Positions 6,807 through 23,827 of a stretch of 64,000 bases of DNA are shown in pieces. The notes beneath the pieces were generated by a model. The model was given only the letters and a program-made list of their open reading frames with translations, made no database searches and was not told the DNA's origin. Position numbers and translations under genes: made by a program. The stretch lies in the NCBI RefSeq assembly GCF_009193255.1, contig NZ_WACG01000001.1, positions 558,001-622,000 on the forward strand, read 5' to 3'. The DNA is from Arthrobacter koreensis. GTDB lineage: Bacteria > Actinomycetota > Actinomycetes > Actinomycetales > Micrococcaceae. How positions within the stretch are numbered: position 1 is the stretch's first letter; the number at the start of each line of letters is the position of its first letter.

Positions 6807-6844
6807 CCGCTCCCCCGGCCGCCGGTTCGCCTAGAGTTGGGTAA

Positions 6845-7123
6845 ATGAGCGCACCCGTAGACCTGACAGCCGTATTAGTTCCCAACCCCGGAGAGTTCTT
6901 CCGGGTCAAGCTGGCCCTGGAGATCGCGATCGAGCAGGTCCAGGCCGAACCCGGCTGCCTCCGCTATGAAATCACCGAGGAGTCCGAAGACCGGATCGTC
7001 CTGACCGAACAGTGGGCCTCCGAAGAGGACCTCGCCCGGCACTCCCGCGGGGCGGCCAAGCAGGACCTGGATGAGTCCCTCAGCGCCCTGTTGGCAGAAC
7101 CGGTGGCGCTGCACCGCGGCTAG
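6845..7123 (+). CDS. Antibiotic biosynthesis monooxygenase (ABM) domain protein
   Basis: 92 residues, the size of a single ABM/YgiN ferredoxin-like domain. It shows the typical pattern of this fold: an N-terminal strand (VDLTAVLVP), a helix, EPGCLRYEI, then IVLTEQWASEEDLARHSRG. Such proteins are dimeric cofactor-free monooxygenases or quinol-binding proteins, and many have no known substrate. It starts 38 bp after the glycosylase gene on the same strand, so co-transcription is possible. Confidence 0.75.
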   Translation: MSAPVDLTAVLVPNPGEFFRVKLALEIAIEQVQAEPGCLRYEITEESEDRIVLTEQWASEEDLARHSRGAAKQDLDESLSALLAEPVALHRG

Positions 7124-11590: not shown

Positions 11591-11596
11591 CTTCGG

Positions 11597-11678
11597 TGGC
11601 AGATGAGGGATTCGAACCCCCGTAGGCATTGCCAGCTGATTTACAGTCAGCCCCCTTTGGCCGCTCGGGTAATCTGCC
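11597..11678 (-). tRNA. tRNA-Tyr (anticodon GTA)
   Basis: The minus strand folds as a class II tRNA: the acceptor stem GGCAGAT pairs with ATCTGCC, the anticodon stem-loop is GCTGACTGTAAATCAGC with anticodon GTA, and the T-arm is GGGGGTTCGAATCCCTC. A long variable arm lies between them, as expected for bacterial tRNA-Tyr. The 3' CCA is not fully encoded (ACC then G). Followed by a strong terminator. Confidence 0.97.
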
Positions 11679-12370: not shown

Positions 12371-12862
12371 ATGGCCAGCGAGTCATCATTCGACGTCGTC
12401 AGCAAGATCGACAAGCAGGAAGTTGCCAACGCCCTGAACCAGGCCCAGAAGGAAATTGCCCAGCGCTACGACTTCAAGGGCGTCGGTGCCGAGGTTGATT
12501 TCAGCGGCGAGAAGATCCTGATGAAGGCCAATTCGGAAGAGCGCGTCAAGGCCGTCCTGGACGTCTTCCAGTCCAAGCTGGTCAAGCGCGGCATCTCCCT
12601 GAAGTCCCTCGATGACGGCGAGCCCTACGCCTCCGGCAAGGAGTACCGGATCGAAGCCTCCATGAAGGAAGGCATCGCCCAGGACCAGGCCAAGAAGATC
12701 AACAAGATGATCCGCGACGAAGGTCCCAAGGGCGTCAAGTCCCAGATCCAGGGCGATGAGCTGCGTGTCAGTTCCAAGTCCCGCGATGACCTGCAGGCCA
12801 CCATGGCCATGCTCAAGGGCGCGGACCTGGACGTTGACCTGCAGTTCATCAACTTCCGCTAG
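12371..12862 (+). CDS. yajQ: YajQ family cyclic-di-GMP-binding protein
   Basis: 163 residues, full length. It begins [21 protein letters not shown] and contains QRYDFKG and [11 protein letters not shown], both signatures of the YajQ/UPF0234 family; it ends LQFINFR. YajQ proteins bind cyclic-di-GMP or nucleic acid and can act with transcription factors; the role in actinobacteria is not settled. The start follows AAGGAG. The last 19 bases plus one form the left attachment repeat of the integrated element, so insertion leaves the coding sequence intact while separating the gene from its own terminator at 23,090. Confidence 0.93.
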
Positions 12863-12863
12863 G
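12844..12863. repeat. attL: left copy of 20-bp direct repeat
   Basis: GTTCATCAACTTCCGCTAGG, overlapping the end and TAG stop of yajQ. It is identical to 23048-23067. Confidence 0.92.
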
Positions 12864-12893
12864 TAGAGCGCGTATCACCTAGTCAGACGCGGA

Positions 12894-14015
12894 TTATTGG
12901 ACCTCAGTCCGCTCAGAGTCCGCAGGACCGTCAAGGACCGCAGCCATGAGTTCATCGGCTGCGGTCCTTGTTTTGTCTTCCGCGGTCGGCCACAAGTGGG
13001 TGTAGGTGTTCAATGTGATGGACGGCAGTGAATGCCCCAGGGCTCGCTGAACGGTTGCGACATCGCACCCTGAGGCGATCAGAGCAGAGGCATAGAAGTG
13101 CCGGAGGTCATGAAGGGTGAAGTCTTCCATCCCGCATGCTTCGCGGACCTCGCGCCAGTAGTAGCCAGCCATTCCCCTGTTCCAAAGATGTCCACCCGTT
13201 GAAAACAGCCACTGTTCATCGCCATGCACGCCCACGTGCTCAATGTGACGAGCGATCATCTCAGTGAGGCGGGCAGAGACAAAGATGACCCGCTCTGAGC
13301 CATGCTTAGGGGTCACCACTTCCGCCACCTTGCGATTCTCTCCCTGCACCTGCCGGTTGACCGTCAACGTCCGCCGCAGAAAGTCGACATCGCCCACCTG
13401 CAGGCCGGCTGCCTCACCGAGTCGAAGCCCGGCGAAGGCACACACGCCTATATAGGTCTCGAACCATTCGGGCGCAGCTTTCAGTGCTGAGGCCACCTGT
13501 TGCGTCGTCGGTATGGTCATAGCCACTTCGGGGCGGCGCTCTCTAGGCAATTTGATGTTGTCGGACGGGTCCAAGACGATTACTCGATCCGCTACGGCGC
13601 CTTTAAAGGCGGAACGCACCAGGTTGTATCGGACTTTCACGGTTGCCGGCGACAAACCAGACTTGCGAGTTGCTGCAGGCAGCGTCATCGACCTAACCCA
13701 TGCTTGGACATGGGAGGGCTTGATCTTCTTCATTTGCAGATCTGCGAAGGTGACGGATTGCAACGCCTGGGCAGCAGACAGTCTCGTCCCGCGTGACCAG
13801 ATCTGCAGTTCTGCCCACTGTGTAAACCACTGCGCGAACGTGATCGTCCCCGCTTTCGGATCCACATAGGTCCCGGTTACGACCGATGCCGTGACCTCAT
13901 CCAGCCACCGCTGCGCGTCTATCTTCCTGGCGAAGTGACGGGCATGCTCCTTACCTATTTCATCGCGGTAGCGGGCACGCCACCGCCCGTCAGGCCTCTT
14001 CTGGATCGACGCCAT
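12894..14015 (-). CDS. int: Tyrosine recombinase (integrase) of the yajQ element
   Basis: 373 residues. The N-terminus is an Arm-type DNA-binding domain (MASIQKRPDGRWRARYRD), followed by a SAM-like core-binding domain and the catalytic domain. Catalytic residues are all present: Arg198 (AGLRLGE), His302 and Arg305 (LHDLRHFYAS), His328 (LGHS) and Tyr338 (LNTYTHL). It integrates and excises the element through the 20-bp repeats. The stop lies 30 bp from attL, and the start overlaps the stop of the upstream HTH gene by one base. The last ~25 codons also contain a plus-strand terminator-like hairpin. Confidence 0.95.
   Translation of the reverse strand: MASIQKRPDGRWRARYRDEIGKEHARHFARKIDAQRWLDEVTASVVTGTYVDPKAGTITFAQWFTQWAELQIWSRGTRLSAAQALQSVTFADLQMKKIKPSHVQAWVRSMTLPAATRKSGLSPATVKVRYNLVRSAFKGAVADRVIVLDPSDNIKLPRERRPEVAMTIPTTQQVASALKAAPEWFETYIGVCAFAGLRLGEAAGLQVGDVDFLRRTLTVNRQVQGENRKVAEVVTPKHGSERVIFVSARLTEMIARHIEHVGVHGDEQWLFSTGGHLWNRGMAGYYWREVREACGMEDFTLHDLRHFYASALIASGCDVATVQRALGHSLPSITLNTYTHLWPTAEDKTRTAADELMAAVLDGPADSERTEVQ
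12932..12974 (+). terminator. Plus-strand terminator for yajQ inside the integrase gene
   Basis: A perfect 14-bp stem (12932-12945 with 12957-12970), an 11-nt loop, then TTTT. It faces transcription arriving from yajQ across attL. Since the native yajQ terminator now lies beyond attR, the element appears to supply a replacement. Confidence 0.65.
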
Positions 14016-14566
14016 CAGATCGTCAGCTGTCCACGCTCACGCGCCAATTTGATCCAGTGTGACGCCGTCCTAAGAGGAACTTCGAAGGCATCAGAGACGT
14101 ACTGCGCTGGCGGCACCAACTTGATCTTCGCCAACGTATATAGACGGGCCACCCATCGCAGGGTCTCAGGTTGCGGCCCTTTCTCCGCCATCCGAGGGAG
14201 CATCTCGGGATCACTGCCCATTGCGTTGTGCATGGACTGGAACAGCGGGAGCGCCTTCCCCTTCTGTTTCGTAAGGAGAGCTCGGTTGATGCAAAGTTTC
14301 AGCAACATCTGCACCGGAACGCTACGCAACAGGGTCCCGGTGACAGGGAAGTCATCGACTGGCGCCTCGATGGTCAATTCCCGCACCTCATAAGTGAACC
14401 TCTCATCACTCCAGAGGATCACCATACGAACCCTGGATGTCCGCTCAGGATCCCAGTTCAAATGATCATCCTGCGTAACGGTGGCCTCAATCCGTCGGAG
14501 GATAGTCAGCTCATCCCCAATGTTGACGAAGTTTGAGGGGCGAAGTGGGTAGTCGATTTCGATCAC
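14015..14566 (-). CDS. HTH protein translationally linked to the integrase
   Basis: 183 residues from a GTG at 14566. The first ~100 residues have no recognised family and contain many strands. The last ~45 (VARLYTLAKIKLVPPAQYV then FEVPLRTASHWIKLARERGQ) form a helix-turn-helix of the type common in actinobacterial proteins with replication or regulatory roles in integrative elements. Its stop shares a base with the integrase start, so the two are probably co-translated. It may control integrase expression or bind attachment-site arms; this is inference from position. Confidence 0.7.
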   Translation of the reverse strand: MIEIDYPLRPSNFVNIGDELTILRRIEATVTQDDHLNWDPERTSRVRMVILWSDERFTYEVRELTIEAPVDDFPVTGTLLRSVPVQMLLKLCINRALLTKQKGKALPLFQSMHNAMGSDPEMLPRMAEKGPQPETLRWVARLYTLAKIKLVPPAQYVSDAFEVPLRTASHWIKLARERGQLTI

Positions 14567-14583
14567 AGGGCTAGCGTACGACC

Positions 14584-14652
14584 ATTGTCAAGGGTCTGCA
14601 ATTGCGTTGCGTTGACAAGCAACGGCAATGCGTGATTGTCTGTGCTTGTCAA
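14584..14652. promoter_or_regulatory. Operator-like repeats in the divergent int/xis control region
   Basis: TTGACAAGCA at 14612-14621 and its exact inverse TGCTTGTCAA at 14643-14652 form a 10-bp inverted repeat. A third TTGTCAA lies at 14585-14591. They sit between the minus-strand HTH-int transcript and the plus-strand excisionase, where a lysogeny-type switch or Xis binding sites are expected. Confidence 0.6.
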
Positions 14653-14680
14653 GCATACGCAACCCAAGGACAGGAACCCT

Positions 14681-14875
14681 GTGGACACCGTGAAAGCCAT
14701 GAAGTTACTAACTCTCGACGAGGTGGCAGAAATGCTGCGGAAGTCGCCTGCACAGATGCGCTGGATGCGTCACAACGGGACAGGACCGCGATCTGCACGA
14801 CTGGGTGGACGGATCGTCTACAGGGAAGCCGACGTCATCGAATGGGTAAACCAGGCATTCGAGGAGAACAACTAG
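14681..14875 (+). CDS. Excisionase / AlpA-like helix-turn-helix protein
   Basis: 64 residues from a GTG at 14681, chosen because AGGA lies 6-9 nt upstream; an internal ATG at 14699 is the alternative. Sequence LTLDEVAEMLRKSPAQMRWMR, then GPRSARLGGRIVYREADVIEWV, is the MerR-like winged helix of excisionases (HTH_17). In integrative elements this protein steers recombination toward excision or activates the element's genes (AlpA). It is divergent from the integrase transcript and first in the long plus-strand gene block. Confidence 0.85.
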   Translation: MDTVKAMKLLTLDEVAEMLRKSPAQMRWMRHNGTGPRSARLGGRIVYREADVIEWVNQAFEENN

Positions 14876-14944
14876 GCATCTACCCAGCAGCACCAAGTCC
14901 GTTGTCAGACGGCAAGCACCCCAGCTGAGAAAAGGTACATAGCC

Positions 14945-15175
14945 ATGCCCACAGCAGACCTACCAAGCTTCACGACCATCAAGAAATGGATCCTCGAAGC
15001 AGCCAGGGACTCAAACACAAAGATGAGCGTGCGTCACGCGAAGAAACTCGCCGGCGACTATCTCGCCCAGAACGATCCCGACTGCTACAAGCGGATTACT
15101 CACGCTGATCCGGTAGGAGAAGGCGTAGCCAGACGGTGGACAGAGTTTCACCACCACCCAGTGAGGCTCGAATGA
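14945..15175 (+). CDS. Hypothetical protein, 76 residues
   Basis: MPTADLPSFTTIKKWILEAA is the start, with AAAAGG about 10 nt upstream. The product is basic and helical (SVRHAKKLAGDYLAQ) and ends in a His-containing tail. No family is recognised. Its TGA overlaps the ATG of the next tiny ORF by the ATGA pattern. Comparable small ORFs of unknown role lie between excisionase and replication genes in many actinobacterial integrative elements and phages. Confidence 0.55.
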   Translation: MPTADLPSFTTIKKWILEAARDSNTKMSVRHAKKLAGDYLAQNDPDCYKRITHADPVGEGVARRWTEFHHHPVRLE

Positions 15176-15252
15176 ACGCCTCGCAAGCAGCAAAAAGCGG
15201 CCTGGACACTCCCGCCAAGAAGTTCGTCCAGACCGCCAAACAATCCCTCTGA
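15172..15252 (+). CDS. Very small ORF, 26 residues, ATGA-coupled
   Basis: It starts in the stop codon of the preceding gene (ATGA) and encodes a short basic peptide (MNASQAAKSGLDTPAKKFVQ...). It is too short for family assignment. The evidence is the exact overlap and the same pattern in neighbouring genes. Confidence 0.35.
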   Translation: MNASQAAKSGLDTPAKKFVQTAKQSL

Positions 15253-15270
15253 AAGGAACAGATTCAACTA

Positions 15271-15414
15271 ATGGTCACTGTACACAAAACCAGCATCAAC
15301 GACCAGATTGAGGCCTTGCGGCAGCTCGGAGTCCACACGATCCAGGACCTGGCGCGATACGCCGATACACGCGGCATCCGACCTTCCGAACTGCTCGGAG
15401 GCGCAAATGTCTAG
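15271..15414 (+). CDS. Small hypothetical protein, 47 residues
   Basis: It begins MVTVHKTSINDQIEALRQLG, preceded by GAAAGGAA about 13 nt upstream. The sequence (GVHTIQDLARYADTRGIRPSELLGG) looks like a short helical, possibly HTH-like, protein. It overlaps the start of the next gene by eight bases. No family is recognised. Confidence 0.5.
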   Translation: MVTVHKTSINDQIEALRQLGVHTIQDLARYADTRGIRPSELLGGANV

Positions 15415-15655
15415 GGAAGCATCAACTGCCATAGAGACAAGGGTGTCGCCAGTACCGACCCCCTTGGTGTACCACTACCACCGGAACACCGACATCAGGT
15501 TCTCCCAAATCACCGGTGCGAGCATCAAAGCCCTATGCGGAGCCCAAGGCCCGGTAGGAAGCACGCCTCCCGCGGGGAGTCTCACGGGAGCTGGCACGGT
15601 CTGCCCCCTCTGCGCCACCGTCCTCGCCGACATCAGGAGCGGGGGAACGGTATGA
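15407..15655 (+). CDS. Small putative zinc-binding protein, DUF3039-like
   Basis: 82 residues from MSREASTAIE. The centre has HYHRNTD, then a Cys-containing stretch (KALCGAQG) and, after a Gly/Pro-rich loop, a CPLC knuckle followed by ATVLADI. The spacing resembles the small actinobacterial DUF3039 proteins with an ALCG...CPxC pattern, though I cannot confirm the match. It starts inside the preceding ORF and ends in an ATGA overlap with the next. The role is unknown; zinc binding is inferred from the cysteines. Confidence 0.55.
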   Translation: MSREASTAIETRVSPVPTPLVYHYHRNTDIRFSQITGASIKALCGAQGPVGSTPPAGSLTGAGTVCPLCATVLADIRSGGTV

Positions 15656-15804
15656 ACCCGCACGAGGACTACTACAACTCGATCCCGGACATGCGAGCCG
15701 AGATGCACAGGACCATCCGCAGCAGCATCGAATGGATAGACGTCCTGATCCACCGCCAAAGCCCCGGCAGCGCGTACGTACCTATGAGAAGTGGGAGTGC
15801 ATAG
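15652..15804 (+). CDS. Small hypothetical protein, 50 residues
   Basis: MNPHEDYYNSIPDMRAEMHR starts at an ATGA overlap with the upstream stop. It is an acidic/basic mixed helix with no family. It is followed one base later by the ATPase start region, so the chain 14945-17173 is probably one transcript. Confidence 0.5.
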   Translation: MNPHEDYYNSIPDMRAEMHRTIRSSIEWIDVLIHRQSPGSAYVPMRSGSA

Positions 15805-15805
15805 A

Positions 15806-17173
15806 TTGACAGACCAGGCGCACACAGAAACCAAGCGTCTCCTCCTCACCCCGGCAAGCCTCATCAAGAGTCGCCGCCAGAAATGGTTCTGGGAGCCCTA
15901 CAAAGGCTCAGGGGTCATCCCCTTGGGAACCGGGACCATTGCAGCCGGGCAGGGCGGGGAGGGCAAGACAACCTTCATGCTGCACCTCGCCGCGCTGCTT
16001 ACTCAGGGGCTGCTCCCCGGCGACCTCTAAGGAACCAAGGGGACGGTGATCATCATCGGGCCTGAGGACGACTGGGAGACCGTAATGATCCCCCGGCTGA
16101 CCGCAGCGGGCGCTGACCTTGACCGAATCTTCAAAATTGAGGTGCAGACCACCTTTGATGAATACACCCGGCAGCGATCCCTCCGCTTCCCTCTGGATAT
16201 GGACAGCATTCGTGAGGCCCAGCATGAGACGGGCGCGAAGCTGATCATCCTGGATCCGGCTCCGTCGCTCATGCATGGGGACATGAATAAGGTCCAGGAC
16301 GTCCGGGAAGCCTACGAACCGCTCATGGCACTCGCTCAGCAATGCGAAGTCGCGATGGTCCTGATCAACCACTTCGGGAAAGGTGCCGGCAGTGTCTCCG
16401 CGAAACTCTCCGGCTCCCATGCGTGGCGAGACCTCACGCGGTCCTACCTCGCATTCGCCAGCGATCCTGACACCGGGGAGCGTGTCTTCAGCCAGGACAA
16501 GAACAACTATGCCGAGTCCAAGGGCAGCTACAAGTTCCTGCTCGAGTCCGTCGATGTGGAAACCGACGACGGCGATACAACCAACGTCGCCAGGGTCAAC
16601 TTCCTAGGAGAAACGGACACCAACGTTTCGGACCTGATCAACCGGGAGCCAGGCGGTGAAGACGAGCAGGACGACAGAAACGCGGCACAGGCGTTCGTCT
16701 CGGACTTCATCCGTGATCGTGAGGGTTGGGAGGCGCCAGCAGCGGAGGTCCTCAAAGCAGGCAAGGCCGCCGGATTCACCGACAACGAGATCAAACACGC
16801 CCGGAGAAGATGCCGCAACCCGCGGATCGCCAGCGTCAAGAGTTCATTCGGGTCCGGGTGGGTCTGGCAGATGGAGCCGGAAGGTGCCACCCAACAGCTC
16901 GAAGGTGCCGAAGGTGCCAAGGTGCCACATGCAGAGAGTCTTGGCACGTTGGTGGCACCTTCCACCGAAGACGCCACCAAGATGCCTACGCCCGTAGAAC
17001 TGGCATCTTCGGCACCTTCGGCACCTTGGGAACCCACCGACGCCGAAATCCGACGCCTGGGAATGCTCCTGCCAAAGACGCCCGCCGAGGTCGAGACAGC
17101 AATGAAGACGACTCCCGAACGGGCCGCCGGCCTCTATTCATGGTTCGTCCAGAACCGAAAACGGACCGCATGA
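15806..17173 (+). pseudogene. RepA-like AAA ATPase (AAA_25), interrupted by an in-frame TAA
   Basis: Reading from a TTG at 15806 (GGGAG 8 nt upstream) gives LTDQAHTETKRLLLTPASL, then Walker A GQGGEGKTTF. After GLLPGDL a TAA at 16028-16030 stops the frame; the same frame resumes at once with GTKGTVIIIGPEDDWE and runs to 17173, including Walker B AKLIILDP (the Asp of motif B) and INHFGKG. Relatives usually have Tyr or another residue between L and G at this position, so one base change (TAT/TAC to TAA) explains the break. Full length would be ~455 residues. Family: hexameric RepA/KaiC-like helicase-loader ATPases of plasmids, phages and satellites. Readthrough or sequencing error are alternatives. 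Confidence 0.8.
16883..17025. repeat. Iteron-like GGTGCC repeats in the 3' part of the RepA-like gene
   Basis: GGTGCC occurs in direct orientation at 16883, 16904, 16913 and 16921, mostly within GAAGGTGCC. The inverted form GGCACC is at 16954, 17011 and 17020. The pattern suggests replication-initiator binding sites, but this is a guess from layout. Confidence 0.45.
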
Positions 17174-17267
17174 ACTCCATGTGTTCACCCCATAAACCCC
17201 GCGAAAGGCGGAACCCATGAATAACAGCTTCATCATCGTCACCGGCATTGAAGGAGTCAGTAAATGA
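17170..17267 (+). other. Two possible 16-codon ORFs chained by ATGA overlaps
   Basis: ATG at 17170 overlaps the ATPase stop and runs to 17220. A second ATG at 17217 overlaps that stop and runs to 17267, which overlaps the ATG of the next gene at 17264. They encode MNSMCSPHKPRERRNP and MNNSFIIVTGIEGVSK. These may be relay peptides for translational coupling and not functional proteins. Confidence 0.25.
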
Positions 17268-17491
17268 GCCTGGGACGCTACCTCTGGACCAACACCGTTC
17301 CGGGCGAAGGCTACGGCGAACAAATCGACATCGACGTGGATTCCCTGCCCAAGACATCCCTGCCACCAAACGTCACACTTCCCAATCTCCACATGGACGA
17401 GAGGACCGGGCTCATCATGCGATGCCAAGTACCCAACTTCTTCATCAGCCCGGACGGGCTCCTCTACCACTCCACCAACTACGGGAGCTGA
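17264..17491 (+). CDS. Hypothetical protein, 75 residues
   Basis: MSLGRYLWTNTVPGEGYGEQ starts after GAAGGAG at a good distance. The sequence has alternating polar/hydrophobic strands and ends DGLLYHSTNYGS. No family is recognised. It is one base from the next gene's start, in the same plus-strand block. Confidence 0.5.
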   Translation: MSLGRYLWTNTVPGEGYGEQIDIDVDSLPKTSLPPNVTLPNLHMDERTGLIMRCQVPNFFISPDGLLYHSTNYGS

Positions 17492-17492
17492 C

Positions 17493-17735
17493 ATGGCAAG
17501 AAGTAGATCGAAGGCAACCAGCCCCGACGGACGCCCCCGCGTGCAGCCTCGGCCCTACGCATGGAAAGACAAGGACGGAACCAGAACCGCAGGGATCGCT
17601 CTATGGGCCAGGAACGGCCTTGCAGGACATCTGACAGATGTGGAGGCGCGGGATCTGGCAGACCAACTCCACGACCTAGCAGACAACGCCTGCACCGAAC
17701 CGAAACTATCCACCGCCCAAACCGAACGACACTAA
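17493..17735 (+). CDS. Hypothetical protein, 80 residues
   Basis: MARSRSKATSPDGRPRVQPR is a basic, disordered N-terminus followed by a compact region (AGIALWARNGLAGHLTDVEAR DLADQL, split here for length). The C-terminal half is helical. No family is recognised. It is the last gene before a terminator hairpin, so it probably closes the first plus-strand operon of the element. Confidence 0.5.
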   Translation: MARSRSKATSPDGRPRVQPRPYAWKDKDGTRTAGIALWARNGLAGHLTDVEARDLADQLHDLADNACTEPKLSTAQTERH

Positions 17736-17749
17736 CCGTGCCGGAACAC

Positions 17750-17784
17750 AAGGCCACGCCAGCAAGCGATGCTGGCGTGGCCTT
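17750..17784 (+). terminator. Terminator hairpin within the element
   Basis: A perfect 14-bp stem (17750-17763 with 17771-17784) and 7-nt loop follow the gene ending at 17735. The tail is TTACT, not a full T-run. Confidence 0.7.
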
Positions 17785-17856
17785 ACTCATGTGACCAGCA
17801 AACGGGACACCCCATGCCCCAGGGCACACGAACCATTCCTCTTGAAAGGCAACACC

Positions 17857-18693
17857 ATGTTTCAGATCACCGAAGACGCAAGCAAGAACCTCGTCACCAT
17901 CAACCTCTTCGAACGTGCCACGAAAAAGGCCGGACTGAACCTCCCCGAGTTTGATCCCTCCACAGTCCCCGCACCCAACGTCACCGCCGCCACCCCTGAA
18001 GAAATCACAGCAGCAGTGCACAAGGCAGTCGCAGCAGGCAAAGATCCCCTCGCAGACAAGAGCGTGCAGCAGCTCATGATGAGGAAACTCCTCGTAGACC
18101 AGGTAGGAGGATTCCACTACCGCAACCAGCTCGCCATTACCAAAGCCAAGATGGAGCACATCAAGGCGCACGCACCGGACCTACTGCAGCAGCTGGACGA
18201 AGAGTTCACTGAAGCCGTGGACACCATGAGGGAACAGATTCCCGTAATCGGGCACCGAGACCTCAAGCACGCACTCACCGAGATCGACCGCGTCCGAGAC
18301 CACGTAGCGGAAGGCATCACCGCCGCATTCCGGGCACTCTCCAAAGCCACGACGATCGTAGAAGCACTCCCATACATCCTAGAAGCCTCGGGAGTGCGGC
18401 TCGCCTCAGGCGGACACTACGGGCTCCTCACCTACTGCAAGCCCACACACCAGCAGTTCATCGACCACCGGCTCAGCTCCCACAGCACGCAGAACAACCA
18501 CGGCAGAACCCACAACATCTGGGACCTCCTCAACGACGGCATCACCGTGGAACTCGCAACCACAGCAGAAGAGTTCAAAACCCGAATGCAACTGCTTGAA
18601 CGCGGACGCAACGAAGCCGGTCGAGACCTCCGTGCCGAAGCTGATCAGCACGCGACGGCCAAGCGACAGGCACGGATCTTCGGTCTCTCCTAG
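17857..18693 (+). CDS. Hypothetical protein, 278 residues, element-encoded
   Basis: The start is MFQITEDASKNLVTINLFER, with GAAAGG upstream. The product is largely alpha-helical: residues ~45-165 include a coiled-coil-like part (LAITKAKMEHIKAHAPDLLQQLDEEF, listed in two pieces of family-free sequence). It ends in a charged Lys/Arg helix. No catalytic motif is visible. It sits between the replication block and the terminase small subunit, so a structural, remodelling or interference function is possible, but nothing in the sequence decides this. Confidence 0.55.
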   Translation: MFQITEDASKNLVTINLFERATKKAGLNLPEFDPSTVPAPNVTAATPEEITAAVHKAVAAGKDPLADKSVQQLMMRKLLVDQVGGFHYRNQLAITKAKMEHIKAHAPDLLQQLDEEFTEAVDTMREQIPVIGHRDLKHALTEIDRVRDHVAEGITAAFRALSKATTIVEALPYILEASGVRLASGGHYGLLTYCKPTHQQFIDHRLSSHSTQNNHGRTHNIWDLLNDGITVELATTAEEFKTRMQLLERGRNEAGRDLRAEADQHATAKRQARIFGLS

Positions 18694-18702
18694 ACCACTC
18701 AC

Positions 18703-18797
18703 GGGTAGGGGCCATAGGTAGCGCCTAGACGCCCACCCCTATGCCCCTACCCACCACCCCTCACTTCGCTCCCCCGGGTATAGCGATATATCCCCGA
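18703..18797. repeat. Inverted repeats just upstream of the terminase small subunit gene
   Basis: GGGTAGGGGCCATAGG (18703-18718) pairs with CCTATGCCCCTACCC (18738-18752), leaving one mismatch/bulge. A second imperfect dyad, GGGTATAGCGATATATCCCC, follows at about 18776-18795. They could be a terminator of the upstream gene or a cos/pac-type packaging site. Confidence 0.5.
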
Positions 18798-18843
18798 GGA
18801 TCTGGATGAATCGACCTGCCATTGCCGGGTCAGAAAGGCACAC

Positions 18844-19188
18844 ATGGAACACAAGACCCCTTCAGGGTTGAAGTCTGGAGGCCGCAAACTGTGGCGTTCA
18901 ATCACCGATGAGTTCGAGTTGGGACAGCATGAACTGAGCATCCTGGTTGAGGCTGCACGGACTGTAGATGCCTTGGATGAGCTGGAAAGCATCGTCAGGG
19001 ACGAGGGAGTAACCAACATTTCTCCGCAGGGTGTGAGGGCTCATCCGGCACTTGTGGAGGCGCGGCAGCAGCGCGTGACACTGGCGAAGCTGGTCGCTTC
19101 GCTGCGGATCCCTTTGGAAGATGAGCAGGAGGCTGCGAGAACACCGCAGAAGCGCTCTGGGGTCCGGAGCATTTCGAGCATCCGATGA
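18844..19188 (+). CDS. terS: Phage terminase small subunit, P27-like
   Basis: 114 residues. Start context AAAGG then ATGGAACAC. The sequence SGGRKLWRSITDEFELGQHELSILVEAARTVD (given in family terms: glycine-rich start, WRSI, helical LxxAARxxD) and HPALVEARQQRVTLAKLVASL match the compact P27-type terminase small subunit. These recognise packaging sites and direct DNA to the large terminase. No large terminase is in the element, which is the state seen in phage satellites that redirect a helper phage's packaging. The stop overlaps the next gene (ATGA). Confidence 0.75.
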   Translation: MEHKTPSGLKSGGRKLWRSITDEFELGQHELSILVEAARTVDALDELESIVRDEGVTNISPQGVRAHPALVEARQQRVTLAKLVASLRIPLEDEQEAARTPQKRSGVRSISSIR

Positions 19189-19427
19189 GGCGGCGTCCGA
19201 AGGTTGTCCTCCTAGAGGATGGGAAGCCGTGGGATGGCAAGATTCCCGACTGGGCAGTCAGCTTCCGTGAGGACGCTTGGCCCGGATATGAGGCTTGGGA
19301 GCGCTGGGATGCGTGGTGGGACGCTTCCGCCGCTTGGGCGGAGAAACACATGCCGGAAGGATTCGACGCGCTTATGCAGCTAATGACCGAACCGCCTTCA
19401 AGGCCCTGGAACCCGTCCGACATCTAA
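19185..19427 (+). CDS. Hypothetical protein, 80 residues, coupled to terS
   Basis: MRRRPKVVLLEDGKPWDGKI starts in the terS stop (ATGA). It is Trp-rich (WERWDAWWDASAAWAEKHMP) and acidic. No family is recognised. Proximity suggests a packaging-related role, or a helper-phage interaction role; unproven. Confidence 0.5.
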   Translation: MRRRPKVVLLEDGKPWDGKIPDWAVSFREDAWPGYEAWERWDAWWDASAAWAEKHMPEGFDALMQLMTEPPSRPWNPSDI

Positions 19428-19686
19428 AAGACTTGGCGTCAACATCGCCGGCGGGCTGCAACAACGCATGTGCCGGATTGATGGTGGGGAGCGGTGCCTA
19501 CGTTCCGCACTGATCCACCAGCGCCATGCCGATAAATGAGCTGGGACTTATCAGAAAAGGAATGCCTTTCTTCCATCCCCGCTGCGGCAGACGTATGTCC
19601 CCGGCGCCCGCGAATACGTCGGCGCCGGGGACTGTCAGAGCCAACTTATAGACTTTGAACATTCGACAAACAAAGAGAGAAATAAC

Positions 19687-19866
19687 ATGGCACACAGGTA
19701 TGAATACACAGTCAATGAAGGACTCAACGGCCAACGGAAGGTGGCCGGCAACTCGTACACCTTCGCTGACGGGTACTTCCACTTCTTGGATGGAGACAAG
19801 ACCAAGGTCTTCTCCATCCGAGCGGAGAAGGTTTCCACGATTCAGCGGGCTGACACGACAAAGTAG
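19687..19866 (+). CDS. Small protein of 59 residues with its own terminator
   Basis: MAHRYEYTVNEGLNGQRKVA begins after GAGAGAA. The product is beta-rich (SYTFADGYFHFLDGDKTKVF) and ends ADTTK. It is just under the usual length cutoff for automatic ORF calls. The gene lies alone, with 260 bp upstream and a hairpin terminator directly downstream, which suggests a separately expressed small protein. No family is recognised. Confidence 0.55.
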   Translation: MAHRYEYTVNEGLNGQRKVAGNSYTFADGYFHFLDGDKTKVFSIRAEKVSTIQRADTTK

Positions 19867-19873
19867 GGCCAAC

Positions 19874-19916
19874 AGTGCTCCCCAGCTGTCTCTCAAGGCA
19901 GTTGGGGAGCACTTTC
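19874..19916 (+). terminator. Terminator of the 59-residue gene
   Basis: A 15-bp stem with one G-T pair (19874-19888 with 19899-19913) and a 10-nt loop is followed by TTC. It lies 8 bp past the stop. Confidence 0.75.
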
Positions 19917-19952
19917 ATGTCCGCCGAAACTACGGAGAAGAGGAGTAATTCC

Positions 19953-20282
19953 ATGTCAGAATTCACCGTTTCCAGAGGTAAGGATTCCAGCCTGTTGTTC
20001 CTACCGTTCTCAGCCATGAGCGAGATCGATACGCGTAGCTGGAATGCCCTCGGGGAGCTCATCGTGGCTGCACGAGCGCAAGGGCTACTCGCAAATGAGT
20101 CGACATGCGACCGCACATCGATCCCCGGGGGATGGAACATGATCGCCTCAAATCAGCATTTTGAACTTCTGTCAGGAGTGGCCCACGCTGCTGTCGAGGG
20201 CGACTATCAACCCTTAGTCGCCCTTCGAGACGGCAGGGCCGCCCCCTTGAGGGGCACCTCACCCCCGAACCGCCGCGTGTAA
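19953..20282 (+). CDS. Hypothetical protein, 109 residues
   Basis: The ATG at 19953 has AGAAGAGGAG in front of it. The product begins MSEFTVSRGKDSSLLFLPFS and shows a helix (WNALGELIVAARAQGLL) and a short loop. The C-terminus is basic and proline-rich. No family is recognised. It lies between a terminator and a 266-bp non-coding stretch, so it is probably monocistronic. Confidence 0.5.
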   Translation: MSEFTVSRGKDSSLLFLPFSAMSEIDTRSWNALGELIVAARAQGLLANESTCDRTSIPGGWNMIASNQHFELLSGVAHAAVEGDYQPLVALRDGRAAPLRGTSPPNRRV

Positions 20283-20476
20283 CTATTTCGTTGGTTCGCT
20301 GCGTTACAGTGTCTTCTCGGTCTGCGCCGCGCAACGGTGTGCGGCATTCGGTCAGAATTCGTGCTATTCACACGTCACACAGGGGCAACTAAGAGTGCAC
20401 GTTCTAGCCTCCTGGTGCTCGCTCACGGATAGCGTCGCAATATTGGCACCAGCGTAGAAGACCACCGGGCGACTTG

Positions 20477-20513
20477 CGGTACTTCGGTACTTGGTGCAGA
20501 CTGTGTATGCACC
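20477..20513. promoter_or_regulatory. Operator-like repeats upstream of the ribbon-helix-helix gene
   Basis: CGGTACTT occurs twice in tandem at 20477-20492. GGTGCA at 20493-20498 is inverted as TGCACC at 20508-20513. Repeats of this kind upstream of a ribbon-helix-helix gene are typical autoregulatory operators. Confidence 0.55.
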
Positions 20514-20548
20514 CTTCGGTGCCCACCCTCTATGTAGGAGGAGTATAA

Positions 20549-20806
20549 ATGGCTACAAATAGCCCTATTAAAGTAAGTGAAGAAGTCGATCAGCTCATTT
20601 CTCACGCAGCCCATTTTCTTGGCCGCAGCAAGAAAGATCTTGTTGATGCTGCAGTTCGCGACTATATCGAGGCTCACCGAGACGAACTGAACGCGAGCAT
20701 CCAAGAAGTCATGCACAAACTAGACGGCAGCAATGCTGCAGTTGTGTCGATGATGACTGGATACACTAAATCTGAGCTCGACGAACTGGGTGGCGTTCCA
20801 GAATAA
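20549..20806 (+). CDS. Ribbon-helix-helix DNA-binding protein, candidate antitoxin or cassette regulator
   Basis: 85 residues, preceded by an excellent GTAGGAGGAG site. The N-terminal half PIKVSEEVDQLISHAAHFLG then RSKKDLVDAAVRDYIEAHRD matches the ribbon-helix-helix fold: a beta strand, then two helices with the RSKKDLV turn. The C-terminal half (residues ~52-85) is a separate helical segment that could contact a partner protein. It is 26 bp from the following gene and has repeats upstream. The GC content here is below that of the rest of the window, which suggests transferred cargo. Confidence 0.7.
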   Translation: MATNSPIKVSEEVDQLISHAAHFLGRSKKDLVDAAVRDYIEAHRDELNASIQEVMHKLDGSNAAVVSMMTGYTKSELDELGGVPE

Positions 20807-20811
20807 TACCG

Positions 20812-20848
20812 AAGGGGACTTAGGATGTATCCATGCCTGAGTCCCCTT
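20812..20848 (+). promoter_or_regulatory. Hairpin enclosing the start codon of the 245-residue gene
   Basis: AAGGGGACT (20812-20820) pairs perfectly with AGTCCCCTT (20840-20848). The loop contains the ribosome-binding AGGA and the ATG at 20833, so the structure could limit translation of the downstream gene. Confidence 0.55.
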
Positions 20849-21570
20849 TCGTACGCCCGTCTAAGGCCGTACTCGACAAACTCGCCATCGCAGTCCCGGA
20901 TTTGGGCGTTGACCTCAGCAAACTTGACCATCCCCTGGTCGTTAAAGCACAAACTGTCCCCGGAAAAGTAGCTGCGGGCGGTTCGGTGCGGATCCAGAGC
21001 TTGAACGACCAGCCTTGGTATCAGGCTAAAGTAAACGATCTACGCGGGATTGTTGGATCATTCGAATGCCCCCACCCAGGCATGGACCTCCCTGTTTCGT
21101 GGTGGCTGAGCGACGCCGGGCACCGCAAGCAGGACAGCAGGCAGGATGACTTCTATGACAACTTGCCAGAGGACCCCACCACCAGGACACCGGTTCAGTG
21201 GGATTGGATGCGCTGGGACGCAGAGCGTGCTGTCGAGGCACAACAAGCGGTCAAAAGGGCAATTCGAACCGTTGGACGTGCGTCAATGAGGAGCGGCCAA
21301 ACCGAGTCTCTCCTCTTCACCGAGCGCTCTGAGGTTCGTGTTCGTATCAGGATCAAGGACCATGAGGATGCATATCTTGCCATTTCCATGTGCGGCGTTA
21401 CGGATAAAGAAACCTTTGCGCTGATCCTCTCGTCCTTCAAGGAAGTCCCTTCCGACGATTGGCTACCAGAGCCACAAGGAGCTGTAGGCATAAAGCCTGA
21501 GCCAGGTGAAATCATCTTTTCAACCTTGCTTTCAGTCGCGGCGCAGCATTCCCTGCTAAGCGAAGACTGA
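20833..21570 (+). CDS. Unknown protein, 245 residues, partner of the ribbon-helix-helix gene
   Basis: MPESPFVRPSKAVLDKLAIA is the start. Residues ~70-150 are rich in Trp, Asp and Arg (SWWLSDAGHRKQDSRQDDFY, PVQWDWMRWDAERAVEAQQA). The C-terminal ~90 residues are beta-rich (VRVRIRIKDHEDAYLAISMC). I recognise no domain. The two-gene arrangement resembles a toxin-antitoxin or phage-exclusion cassette, but no nuclease, kinase or transferase motif is visible. Low GC relative to its neighbours. It is followed by a convergent HTH gene. Confidence 0.6.
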   Translation: MPESPFVRPSKAVLDKLAIAVPDLGVDLSKLDHPLVVKAQTVPGKVAAGGSVRIQSLNDQPWYQAKVNDLRGIVGSFECPHPGMDLPVSWWLSDAGHRKQDSRQDDFYDNLPEDPTTRTPVQWDWMRWDAERAVEAQQAVKRAIRTVGRASMRSGQTESLLFTERSEVRVRIRIKDHEDAYLAISMCGVTDKETFALILSSFKEVPSDDWLPEPQGAVGIKPEPGEIIFSTLLSVAAQHSLLSED

Positions 21571-21618
21571 TCGCGCCCAAGATCGGTTCTGACCGGCCCC
21601 CGCCCGATGCAGCTAGGG

Positions 21619-21978
21619 CTAGGCTCTGGCTTCATGACAGACAGCAGGACCTTCCGTTCCCCCAGAAAAATAGAAGTGCCCCAGCTCTCGGCGCTGCTTG
21701 TTCTGCAGGCGTTTCAGAGCCAGTGGAGTCAGAGCGAAGATACTGTCAGGGCCTGGGCCATCCCCAAAAGGCTGCCAACTCTCGTCTGCCGCTCTCGGCT
21801 GGATCTGCTGTGCGAGTTCGTAGGCCTCGATCTCGACTAGCCGGAACCGCCAGAGATGCCCGAGTTTCCAAGCACCGGGAATGTCTCCAGCACGGGCGGC
21901 CTTTGTGATCCATTGGGGCCGGCGTTGCCATCTCTCTGCGAGTTGCTCGACCGTTAGGCTTCGTCCGTCATCTGTCAT
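21619..21978 (-). CDS. HTH (excisionase-like) DNA-binding protein, 119 residues
   Basis: Start ATG at 21978; the frame is open far upstream but without a credible start context. Residues 7-57 (SLTVEQLAERWQRRPQWITK, then AGDIPGAWKLGHLWRFRLVE) are an HTH_17 excisionase-type winged helix. The C-terminal ~55 residues are unrelated and helical. It may regulate the neighbouring cassette, with which it converges, or bind near attR. Confidence 0.65.
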   Translation of the reverse strand: MTDDGRSLTVEQLAERWQRRPQWITKAARAGDIPGAWKLGHLWRFRLVEIEAYELAQQIQPRAADESWQPFGDGPGPDSIFALTPLALKRLQNKQRRELGHFYFSGGTEGPAVCHEARA

Positions 21979-22073
21979 GGCCTGATCGTAGATGCACCTC
22001 AGATGTGAGCCTCGAAGACGCGCCACTGACCTAGACTCCCGCGCATGACGTTCATCAAAGGATCCGCCTAACC

Positions 22074-22313
22074 ATGGCCCGTTCATCAGAGTCCTACGCG
22101 ACAGCCCAGGAGATGGCCGCCAAGTACCGGATCGGGGCCGATACGGTCCGCCGGAAAGCGAGCTCGGGAAAATGGCCCTGCGACAGGATCGGCCGCCTCT
22201 ACCGCTTCTCCCCCGCACAGCAAGACGAAATAGCGCAAATCGTAGCCGGCACACAACACGGCGGATACGACAAAGACCGCATCGCAGCAGCACTCCGCAA
22301 ACTTCGGGACTAA
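22074..22313 (+). CDS. HTH (excisionase-like) DNA-binding protein, 79 residues
   Basis: MARSSESYATAQEMAAKYRI then GADTVRRKASSGKWPCDRIG and LYRFSPAQQDEI form the excisionase-type HTH with its wing. A short helical tail follows. It is divergent from the 21,978 gene with a 95-bp shared control region. AAAGG lies about 12 nt before the ATG. It is the third of five such modules in the element. Confidence 0.65.
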   Translation: MARSSESYATAQEMAAKYRIGADTVRRKASSGKWPCDRIGRLYRFSPAQQDEIAQIVAGTQHGGYDKDRIAAALRKLRD

Positions 22314-22398
22314 AGTGCGCTGGTGGGGCCCTATCCATTCCTGCAAATCGCCCTGGACGCCGCTGGCGTCCTTCCGTAGGAGACACAGGGGGCAGGGT

Positions 22399-22587
22399 CT
22401 AGCCCCTAGGCGCCTCCGAGGGCAGAGCGTCAAACCAGTCTTTGAGCTCTTCAGAACCGATGATGGGCCGAGATGTTGGATAGCGAGCTGCGAGGTTGCC
22501 GGCTTTGATGTGGGCCCGGATGACGTCTGCGCTGACACCGTATGCTGCGGCCGCTTCCTGGACTGTATAAGCCATCTTCTCAGCCAC
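22399..22587 (-). CDS. Small HTH (excisionase-like) protein, 62 residues
   Basis: Start is a GTG at 22587, since AAGGA lies 9 nt upstream; an ATG at 22575 is the alternative. MAYTVQEAAAAYGVSADVIR then AHIKAGNLAARYPTSRPIIG and SEELKDWFDAL is an AlpA/excisionase-type HTH. It is convergent with the preceding gene and divergent from the last gene before attR. Confidence 0.65.
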   Translation of the reverse strand: MAEKMAYTVQEAAAAYGVSADVIRAHIKAGNLAARYPTSRPIIGSEELKDWFDALPSEAPRG

Positions 22588-22676
22588 TCTCGGCCATCCT
22601 TACTCCTATGCAAATCCCCACATTTCTTAGTGAGCCTAGTTAGCTGGATCCAGCCTCACGGATAGGCTCGCCCTGC

Positions 22677-22925
22677 ATGACGCCCAATAACGAGAACACC
22701 GTCTTTCGAACCCCAGAAGAAGTGGCTCCCGAACTCGGGATGACCAAAACCGAACTCCGCAACTACTGCCGAGTCTCGGGCATCCACACCCGGCTCAGCA
22801 AAAACCGCATCATGCTCCACGCGGACGACATTGAAAAGCTCGTCGCATGGGTCCGCGACCGCAAGAACGCAGCCAACGACTGGACTGCCGAACCGGAGCC
22901 GGATCCGTTTGGGAGGCGGGGTTAG
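22677..22925 (+). CDS. Small HTH (excisionase-like) protein next to attR, 82 residues
   Basis: MTPNNENTVFRTPEEVAPEL then GMTKTELRNYCRVSGIHTRL and MLHADDIEKLVAWVRDR show the same HTH layout with a C-terminal helix. The start context is weak (AGG about 12 nt upstream). It is the last gene of the element, 122 bp from attR. Confidence 0.6.
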   Translation: MTPNNENTVFRTPEEVAPELGMTKTELRNYCRVSGIHTRLSKNRIMLHADDIEKLVAWVRDRKNAANDWTAEPEPDPFGRRG

Positions 22926-23047
22926 TCCGCAGAAAGTCCGCCGCAGGTCCACAAACGCACCTATTCGGCCATGCAGCACCAACACCATAAAGCCCGAAAG
23001 CTAGCGGTAAAACGACATACTCAGCGGAGCCCAACCATTGTCTAGAG

Positions 23048-23067
23048 GTTCATCAACTTCCGCTAGG
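23048..23067. repeat. attR: right copy of 20-bp direct repeat
   Basis: It is identical to attL at 12844-12863. It reproduces the last codons and stop of yajQ without an attached open frame, which marks the right boundary. Confidence 0.92.
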
Positions 23068-23089
23068 CCTCCGGCCCGGCCGGACACGA

Positions 23090-23129
23090 CGACGGCGGCG
23101 CACCCCGGGTTCGGGGAGCGCCGCCGTCG
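23090..23129 (+). terminator. Original yajQ terminator, displaced past attR
   Basis: CGACGGCGGCGC (23090-23101) pairs with GCGCCGCCGTCG (23118-23129), and an inner CCCCG/CGGGG extends the stem. It lies 23 bp after the reconstituted yajQ stop in attR, the expected site for the native terminator before insertion. Confidence 0.7.
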
Positions 23130-23149
23130 CTGTTCCGGCCGGAACCCGC

Positions 23150-23827
23150 TTAGGGTGCCAGCTCGACGTCGTCGGCCGCGGGCCCGTCCGTATCCGGATC
23201 TTCCAGCGCGGCGCCGCCAACGGCCTCTCCCTGCCAGGTAAGCAGCTCCCTGGCAGGACCGCTGGCGGCGGGACGCGATTCGAGCACCACGATTCCGGTG
23301 TTGCTCAGCGTGTTGTGGACAATGAAGTCCGGTCCCACGTTGCGGGCGCGCGCCGTGGCCCAGGCCCGGATGATCGCGCCATGGCTGAAGATCACCGGAG
23401 TCTCCAGGCCGGTGCGCTGCAGCTCAGCCACCACCTCGTCGAAACGTCCCAGGGTTTCGGCGCCGTCCGGTCCGCCGGGCATCTGCAGGGACAGGTCCCC
23501 CTGCACCCAGGCGTACACGGTGCGCAGATAGGCCTGGATGGACTCGCTGTCACCGCGCATCTCAAGGCTTCCTGCGGAGATTTCCCGCAGTCCGTCCCGA
23601 ACCTCGATCGGCTGGGCCAGGGCGTCGGCAAGCGGTGTTGCCGTGAGCTGCGTGCGCACCAGGTTGGAAGCATAGACCCCGCTGATCTGTTCGTGCCCCA
23701 GCGCCTGCGGCAGGGCCGCCGCCTGTGCCATCCCGAGGTCTGTCAGGCTGGGACCGGGTGCGCCGGTGTCCAGCAGCCGTTCAATGTTCGACGGCGTCTG
23801 GCCGTGGCGGACGAGGATCAGCCGCAT
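23150..23827 (-). CDS. Histidine phosphatase family protein (phosphoglycerate mutase-like)
   Basis: 225 residues. The phosphohistidine motif LVRHGQTPSN is at residues 5-14, the second histidine is in FSHGAIIRAW, and the acidic general acid lies in LREISAGSLE. The family includes broad-specificity phosphatases and cofactor-dependent mutases; the substrate cannot be called. The C-terminal ~30 residues are acidic and disordered. The stop is 20 bp from the displaced yajQ terminator. Confidence 0.85.
   Translation of the reverse strand: MRLILVRHGQTPSNIERLLDTGAPGPSLTDLGMAQAAALPQALGHEQISGVYASNLVRTQLTATPLADALAQPIEVRDGLREISAGSLEMRGDSESIQAYLRTVYAWVQGDLSLQMPGGPDGAETLGRFDEVVAELQRTGLETPVIFSHGAIIRAWATARARNVGPDFIVHNTLSNTGIVVLESRPAASGPARELLTWQGEAVGGAALEDPDTDGPAADDVELAP

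Follow-up and report, generated by a model that had tools for sequence, protein, structure and literature searches.

A candidate phage satellite with its own small terminase subunit at the yajQ 3' end of Arthrobacter koreensis

Introduction

What kind of mobile element keeps an integrase and a gene for a terminase small subunit (TerS) among open reading frames (ORFs) with no recognised large terminase subunit (TerL), portal, capsid, tail or lysis gene? This question is raised by a locus of Arthrobacter koreensis (NCBI RefSeq assembly GCF_009193255.1, contig NZ_WACG01000001.1, positions 558,001 to 622,000), a stretch of 64,000 nucleotides that was analysed as a whole, is called the window here and supplies the coordinates below unless another record is named. 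Its element spans 12844-23067. A first-pass annotation had favoured a phage satellite over a remnant prophage, and the present analysis supports that choice by the recurring gene set, the purifying selection on TerS, its partner ORF and the integrase, and the lack of a recognised TerL or portal gene in 12 elements with related integrases. We propose, with a probability of roughly 0.8, that the window element is an integrative phage satellite that resembles the phage-inducible chromosomal islands (PICIs) and encodes its own TerS. Labels beginning with L denote loci or contigs and those beginning with G denote genomes.

Results

Boundaries and insertion site

The element is flanked by two copies of a 20-bp core, GTTCATCAACTTCCGCTAGG, to which no strand is assigned: attL at 12844..12863, which overlaps the end and stop codon of yajQ, and attR, the same 20 bp, at 23048..23067, giving a repeat-to-repeat length of 10,204 bp. 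The first-pass annotation was right that an element is present; its true ends are these repeats and not the proposed 12894..22925. This pair is the sole perfect repeat of its length around the locus among the top 20 repeat families by size, out of at least 60, and 8e-5 such pairs are expected by chance in 13 kb. The yajQ gene (DUF520; 12372-12862; PF04461, 1.2e-61) has the left copy at its 3' end. The joined flanks align over the full 527 nt in 15 of 28 other genomes of the genus and over 447 nt in 2 further genomes of those 28, and attB is placed at the yajQ 3' end because the flanks are uninterrupted there. The same attB is occupied by an 8.6-kb insertion in G027 and a 5.0-kb insertion in G007. 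The element encodes a tyrosine integrase of 373 aa (12894..14015, reverse strand; PF00589, 8.5e-21; phrog_1, 3.8e-65), and the repeats, the integrase and the 15 uninterrupted sites together indicate site-specific chromosomal integration. The G+C content is 0.583 in the element vs. 0.664 in the remaining window. A tRNA-Tyr gene lies just upstream of yajQ at 11595-11678, and a related element, L015 (15602), apparently sits at a tRNA-Tyr end in the same neighbourhood, which would put two att sites of the element family close together.

The small terminase subunit and its partner

TerS (114 aa; 18844..19188, forward strand) matches phrog_1496, "terminase small subunit," at 5.3e-18 and is 58-89% identical to the TerS proteins of six other Micrococcaceae elements. 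It had been called a P27-type subunit; TerS stands, and the P27 assignment does not, as the window protein has no match to PF05119 (Terminase_4, P27), which two distant relatives touch only below the cut-off (L178, E 0.001; L139, E 2.3e-4). An 80-aa partner ORF (19185..19427, forward strand), whose start overlaps the TerS stop (ATGA), directly follows TerS in eight relatives at 27-68% identity. The dN/dS ratios are 0.04-0.14 for TerS (seven pairs; dS 0.74-2.9), 0.07-0.13 for the partner (two pairs) and 0.056 for the integrase vs. G027, indicating that all three are under purifying selection, with dS partly saturated. The phrog_1496 match and this selection point to a packaging-redirecting gene of the element's own.

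In the TerS tree, the window protein falls inside a 10-row clade (support 99/98) that holds no phage rows, while five phage TerSs fall outside it on long branches, mixed among other satellites. The TerS structure model has a pLDDT of 76, and the HK97 small terminase is among its top fold matches only at a non-significant E of 0.8-3. The IMG/VR contig L034 encodes a TerS 85% identical to that of the window.

A conserved site before terS

A conserved two-box site, a putative cos/TerS site, lies at 18776..18817 on the forward strand (box 1, 18776-18785; box 2, 18802-18817) and ends 26 nt before the TerS start. Mean pairwise identity among seven close elements is 0.89 for box 2, 0.63 for box 1 and 0.49 for the linker; L017, where box 2 is not evident, was left out of these values. 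With at most one mismatch, box 2 occurs once in each of five of nine genomes, always before terS, and its reversed control never does. Among the other four genomes, G226 has a more diverged copy, and diverged versions of the site are also found upstream of TerS in Rhodococcus and Agromyces elements. Allowing three mismatches adds one other occurrence in the window (41394-41411). Exact copies of box 2 in the viral contigs L037-L040 lie inside ORFs, look like chance and were rejected. A stem-loop (18703..18752, forward strand; z-score -3.7) stands between a 278-aa ORF and the two-box site, and among five elements folded, stems of other sequence occupy the same place in L013, L014, and L015 (z -3.3 to -3.8), with a weak one in L018 (-1.6).

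Linear phage records open by convention at cos. For five phages, the first base of the linear record lies 52-127 bp upstream of TerS, and by eye, box 1 of contig L034 and the Footloose phage end junction share one 12-base sequence. From its sequence and position, we lean moderately towards reading the two-box site of the window as a packaging (cos) site.

Search for a large terminase subunit

In all six phages viewed, the start of TerL is no more than 20 nt from the end of TerS, whereas an identified TerL follows TerS in none of 37 TerS loci, a check that left out the window, L031, L034-L036, L174, L178, and the short contigs of G750 and G1089. Within 200 nt of TerS, L143 and L146 have ORFs of 384 and 323 aa, respectively, that carry no assignment. 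Downstream of TerS, similarity to tape measure proteins was found in L132, L134, and L128 (the last by PHROGs), with weaker similarity in L137 and L147; L139 has a capsid gene there. Searching 28 regions with four phage TerLs by tblastn gave no matches. The 12 two-repeat elements plus L013 and L174 have 78 ORFs of 250 aa or more, 17 of which were dropped for overlap; PHROGs was applied to the other 61, and TerL and portal were absent among the best 25 of 64 families, where matches weaker than 9e-45 would not show. They were likewise absent among the best 25 of 38 families for a second set, 28 ORFs of the same minimum length from another five integrase relatives, where matches weaker than 1e-19 would not show.

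The Pfam models PF20441 and PF04860 matched in none of nine genomes. PF03354 matched in 5 of 37 genomes, all five outside the family, with the match and TerS on separate contigs or over 300 kb apart; these five genomes could hold resident prophages. In control records (L046, L050, and L090), Pfam missed the TerLs of Hum25 and Bbif-1, placed that of Footloose below the cut-off and caught only the nuclease piece of the Tiff81 TerL, not its ATPase part, while the Tiff81 portal matched PF05133. PHROGs finds the TerLs of Hum25 and Tiff81. Because the Pfam models miss several actinophage TerLs, their negative results for TerL and portal are not counted as absence.

A family of TerS elements

Matches to the 278-aa protein encoded upstream of the two-box site were obtained in 9 of 395 genomes of the family, including that of the window, and seven were retained as TerS elements: the weak match in G300, within an unrelated ORF, was judged spurious and dropped, and G038, which has the 278-aa gene and a transposase and in which TerS was not found, was left out of the TerS counts. 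Within contig reach, the seven elements share a helicase or primase, an 80-aa ORF (in all but L016), the 278-aa ORF, TerS, its partner ORF and variable cargo. The integrase and the ORF in the regulator position are visible in four of them (the window, L015, L016, and L018), the L016 integrase being in two pieces. L016 (15500-16588) and L178 (15879-16984), which come from different genera, both have an integrase broken at nearly the same point, after 61 matched N-terminal residues.

Relatives of TerS at E <= 1e-12 were found in 17 of 395 further genomes of the order and 12 of 393 further genomes of the class. A search of genome contigs confirmed 12 TerS loci among 63 candidate stretches, five of them probably in genomes already covered and the remaining seven in A. 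rhombi, Ruania, two Rhodococcus, Agromyces, Frankia, and a Myxococcota bin. The last of these, L031, has the family TerS beside a tape measure gene, and either a binning error or a wide host range would account for it. Both att repeats were located for six TerS elements that lack a tape measure gene; these elements measure 9.2-10.2 kb from repeat to repeat (window, 10.20; L015, 9.47; L016, 9.21; L018, 9.65; L029, 10.15; L030, 10.12 kb) and sit at tRNA ends or other sites; no convincing att repeat was found for L014, and L178 (13.25 kb), which has both TerS and a tape measure gene, was kept out of this range. That elements of other genera, inserted at different att sites, resemble the window element in gene order indicates an element family conserved across hosts. 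TerS is followed by a tape measure gene, with no TerL recognised, in L034 (1-4543), L174 (7578-10937), L178 (6013-9796), and L128 (9821-13858), and elements of this kind may bring their own tail-length protein.

Related integrases with different modules

Integrases related at E <= 1e-120 were found in 12 of the 395 genomes of the family, including that of the window; at the same attB, those of G027 and G007 are 88 and 82% identical to the window integrase. A TerL or portal was recognised in none of these 12 elements, the blastp references being four phage TerLs and two portals, one of them partial, and neither a full gene set nor degraded structural genes were recognised in any. Seven of the 12 (the window, G027, G007, G046, G235, G204, and G380) are placed at yajQ by flank or core repeat, G204 by a core repeat with 3 mismatches.

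The modules carried beside these integrases differ. The window has TerS. G027 has a scaffold-like ORF (phrog_4708, 0.0014) and a capsid gene (PF05065, 1.3e-24; phrog_10, 1.1e-30), together with an endonuclease-VII-like ORF whose match is below the cut-off. Capsid genes are also found in G046 (phrog_10, 1.9e-53) and in G269 (phrog_10, 2e-25), the latter with a D5-type primase. G380 has TerS and a tape measure gene, and G344 has TerS and a 769-aa protein that matches an endolysin-labelled PHROG best and a tape measure PHROG second. G097 has a tape-measure-like ORF, G235 a tail-fibre-like ORF, and no module was recognised in the 5-kb element of G007 or in G204, G283, and G179.

The G027 element, L083, has the same attB as the window, a capsid gene and the endonuclease-like ORF, and no TerS was found in it. 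Compared with phages, it gave one match, to Arthrobacter phage Tiff81 at bases 1-38 of the linear record (E 2e-3). The alignment crosses the joined Tiff81 ends (78% over 81 nt), and the endonuclease-like genes upstream can also be aligned (60% over 319 nt). This likeness, in L083 region 6660-7100, is a sequence-based lead to the helper of L083.

Other genes of the window element

The Pfam scan covered 19 ORFs (18 of the element plus yajQ) and the PHROGs scan 10, the shortest element ORFs lying outside both. The gene order of integrase, AlpA-type helix-turn-helix (HTH) protein, ATPase and TerS given by the first-pass annotation is borne out by these matches, and its claim that large terminase, portal, capsid, tail and lysis genes are missing agrees with the finding of none of these families among the scanned ORFs. 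At 10,204 bp and without a full virion gene set, the element lies inside the PICI-like size range of ~7-20 kb, the range given for phage satellites in one source (PMC13376191). The set of own capsid, portal and terminase genes that marks capsid-forming PICIs was not recognised in it.

Next to the integrase, a 183-aa ORF (14015..14566, reverse strand) has no Pfam or PHROG matches, is weakly similar to integrase-adjacent ORFs of L033 and L036 (E 0.004-0.005) and occupies the place of the Xre-type repressor of L083, which matches phrog_4 at 2.9e-6; from its position, it is a putative regulator of the window element. Divergent from the integrase gene is that of an AlpA/excisionase-type HTH_17 protein (14636..14875, forward strand; PF12728, 1.4e-11; phrog_66, 5.1e-8), for which PF05930 is below the cut-off (0.0038). 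On the same strand follow an ORF with a DUF3039 match (15308..15655; PF11238, 1.4e-5), similar to one in L018, and, beyond the replication helicase described below, a 75-aa ORF (17264..17491) common to L083 at 67-68% identity and the 80-aa ORF (17493..17735), which is widespread in the element family (39-57% identity in 11 relatives, partly over short stretches) and has no counterpart found in L016. The 278-aa protein (17857..18693, forward strand; dN/dS 0.48) has no phage match at E 1e-3. Its model is confident (pLDDT 88.5) and helical, with no fold match at E <= 0.001.

To the right of TerS is a cargo slot. In the two relatives covered by the PADLOC scan it holds anti-phage genes, AbiD (1.2e-50) in L013 and one resembling PD-T4-5 (5.6e-12) in L018. 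In the window, the slot holds a ribbon-helix-helix/VapB-like protein (20549..20806, forward strand; PF07704, 7.5e-4, and PF09957, 0.0049, both below the cut-off) and a 245-aa ORF (20833..21570, forward strand) without Pfam, PHROG or PADLOC matches; a defence or addiction pair is plausible. The right end is rich in HTH_17 and HTH_17-like proteins: one at 21619..22023 (reverse strand; PF12728, 3.8e-7, for the longer ORF 21619-22386), 75% identical to L083 over 56 aa; one at 22074..22313 (forward strand; 1.3e-4, below the cut-off); one at 22399..22587 (reverse strand; 9.9e-6, just below the cut-off) with relatives in L083, L170, and L172; and one at 22677..22925 (forward strand; 0.0046, below the cut-off), 53% identical to L170 and 44% to L172. 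No Rfam match was found in 12700-23200.

Discussion

A proposed life cycle

When a cos-type helper phage infects the cell, the element would be excised by its AlpA-like protein and its integrase, and the helicase would drive its replication. TerS would bind the two-box site before terS, recruit the helper TerL and steer packaging into helper heads. Because the element is 10.2 kb long and has no recognised capsid-size gene, the simplest case would be the packaging of concatemers, four units (4 x 10.2 = 40.8 kb) fitting the heads of phages with 41-43 kb of DNA; a monomer in a small head would be possible if the 278-aa protein remodels capsids. With a TerS of its own, the element would not depend on a match between its site and the cos of the helper. 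In contrast, the TerS-less sibling at the same attB has DNA related to an Arthrobacter phage cos region.

Alternative explanations

Several observations weigh against a functional satellite with its own packaging site. Phage and satellite TerS rows are intermixed in the deep tree. A 50-nt consensus of the two-box site gave four weak blastn matches and none to a named actinophage among 50,697 phage records, and 161 nt of the window at the site gave no phage matches. A site profile built from 12 sites registered no score on the joined ends of Hum25, Footloose, Malibo, DumpsterDude, Tiff81, JSForest2, and Alyssa1 or on the L083 region; it likewise gave none on the TerS upstream regions of L028, L033, and L036, and its listed scores for L031 (6.5 bits), L017 (4.9), and L020 (2.9) are all under the 6.8 bits of the best of 2800 shuffles. 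No helper was identified in the genome of the window itself, where PF20441, PF04860, and PF03354 were absent, models that some actinophage TerLs escape. The replication gene, finally, is interrupted. It had been annotated as a RepA-like ATPase, and an AAA_25 helicase is indeed present, here as two ORFs separated by an in-frame TAA at 16028-16030: an N-terminal piece with the Walker A motif (15791..16030, forward strand; PF13481, 1.2e-5, just below the cut-off) and a C-terminal piece (16046..17173, forward strand; PF13481, 2.9e-9; phrog_10729, 3.8e-25).

The helicase break leads to the possibility that the satellite lineage is genuine and the window copy dead, its replication stopped and the remainder staying as a cargo island. 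The gene is unbroken in two relatives, L018 (430 aa) and L083 (455 aa), and the window copy may be crippled or replication-defective. The two pieces are 94-96 and 88% identical to L083, respectively, and as both keep low dN/dS against it (0.03 and 0.07), the stop is apparently of recent origin or else a sequencing error; moreover, the integrase and terS are open and a helper could supply replication. We regard a dead copy as quite possible, at somewhat less than even odds, and compatible at the family level with a satellite. Decay from a full prophage, in which TerL, head, tail and lysis genes were lost and the integrase, helicase and TerS kept by chance, would also explain the broken helicase, the mixing of phage and satellite TerS rows and the capsid gene of the sibling at the same attB. 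It is unlikely, since purifying selection acts on TerS (dN/dS 0.04-0.14) and a similar gene set and order is preserved in relatives from other genera, inserted at different att sites; the 9.2-10.2 kb span of six elements and the failure to recognise TerL or portal in any of the 12 related-integrase elements argue in the same direction. Degraded capsid or large terminase genes in close relatives at the same site had been named beforehand as the sign of such decay. Capsid genes do occur there, in G027 of the same genus and G046 of another genus, but they are open; the yajQ-end elements concerned measure 8.6 and 8.1 kb, TerL and portal are unrecognised in both, and the open genes fit module exchange between satellites rather than decay.

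The two-box site itself could be a promoter or regulatory site for terS instead of a packaging site, as its end 26 nt before the start codon and the failure of the profile on the phage end junctions and on that of L083 would suggest. Its position, on the other hand, matches the ends of the linear records of five phages, box 1 of L034 shares its 12 bases with the Footloose junction, and the TerS-less sibling has DNA related to a phage end junction, so that we hold the promoter reading only tentatively. An integrative plasmid or a conjugative element similar to the actinomycete integrative and conjugative elements, which would use a RepA-like helicase and have captured a terS-like gene, is very improbable. 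Integrases, excisionases and helicases are found in integrative plasmids too, and several ORFs of the window element are without known function, but no relaxase or FtsK/TraB-like family was found among the scanned ORFs, TerS is conserved together with its upstream site, and relatives have capsid or tape measure genes. An integrative phage satellite therefore remains the explanation that we prefer.

Comparison with known satellites

By gene content, the window element can be likened to the SaPI-type and Gram-negative PICIs, which likewise have an integrase, a regulator and a replication module and no full virion gene set; an AlpA-like activator is shared with the Gram-negative ones, and some PICIs have their own TerS (PMC6092414). 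It differs from them in its cos-like site beside terS, its actinobacterial host and its interrupted helicase, and no capsid-remodelling gene was recognised in it. SaPIbov5 is a cos-type island whose Ccm is a homologue of the helper capsid protein (PMC8569155). L083 resembles it in gene content, with a putative cos, its own capsid-protein homologue and no TerS found, but has integrase and helicase in common with the TerS-type element of the window. The PICMI of Vibrionaceae (PMC10803314) is small, does not remodel capsids and is packaged as helper-size concatemers, the mode proposed above for the window element; its authors report no terS in it and no cos or pac site in the helper, whereas the window has TerS and a conserved site.

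The first-pass statement that few satellites are described in actinobacteria is partly right, since Mycobacterium candidates and Streptomyces satellites have both been described. The Mycobacterium candidate PICIs are, like the window element, integrase-bearing phage-like islands of actinobacteria, but are defined by integration genes plus a capsid gene (PMC10654092), which the window element lacks. The Streptomyces satellites MulchRoom and MiniFlayer have both terminase subunits, a portal and a capsid and parasitise virulent phages (PMC10690885), unlike the window element. A survey of actinobacterial prophages also suspects satellites among small elements (PMC10023795). JSForest2 and Alyssa1 (L002 and L003; OR387116 and OR387110; 11 kb) of Mycolicibacterium aichiense, deposited as phages, have no annotated TerL, portal or lysis genes and look like satellites. 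Their TerSs belong to the same broad family as that of the window (32-36% identical), and they differ from the window element in having a capsid, connectors, a tape measure and a serine integrase. In the literature searched, mostly without subscription papers, we found no description of the present element family, of Micrococcaceae satellites or of M. aichiense satellites.

A proposed exchange of hijack modules and its meaning

The related integrases suggest a chassis of integrase and helicase, mostly at the yajQ 3' end of Micrococcaceae, that swaps hijack cassettes: TerS with a private cos in the window, a capsid, an endonuclease and a helper-like cos in G027, and TerS with a tape measure, which could retool the tail of the helper, in G344 and G380. 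We consider the case for this proposal evenly balanced. If it is true, a private TerS would remove the need to match the cos of the helper, whereas an element without TerS would have to mimic that cos.

The sequence comparisons point to a little-described satellite family of soil actinobacteria, whose cousins at the same site carry different hijack kits. Satellites shape phage resistance and gene transfer. The actinobacterial satellites that we found described carry capsid genes, and the TerS type without capsid genes differs from them; its occurrence in hosts with many deposited phages makes it a tractable system. The exchange of cassettes at one att site would make it possible to test how satellites switch between redirecting packaging, mimicking the cos of a helper and remodelling virion parts.

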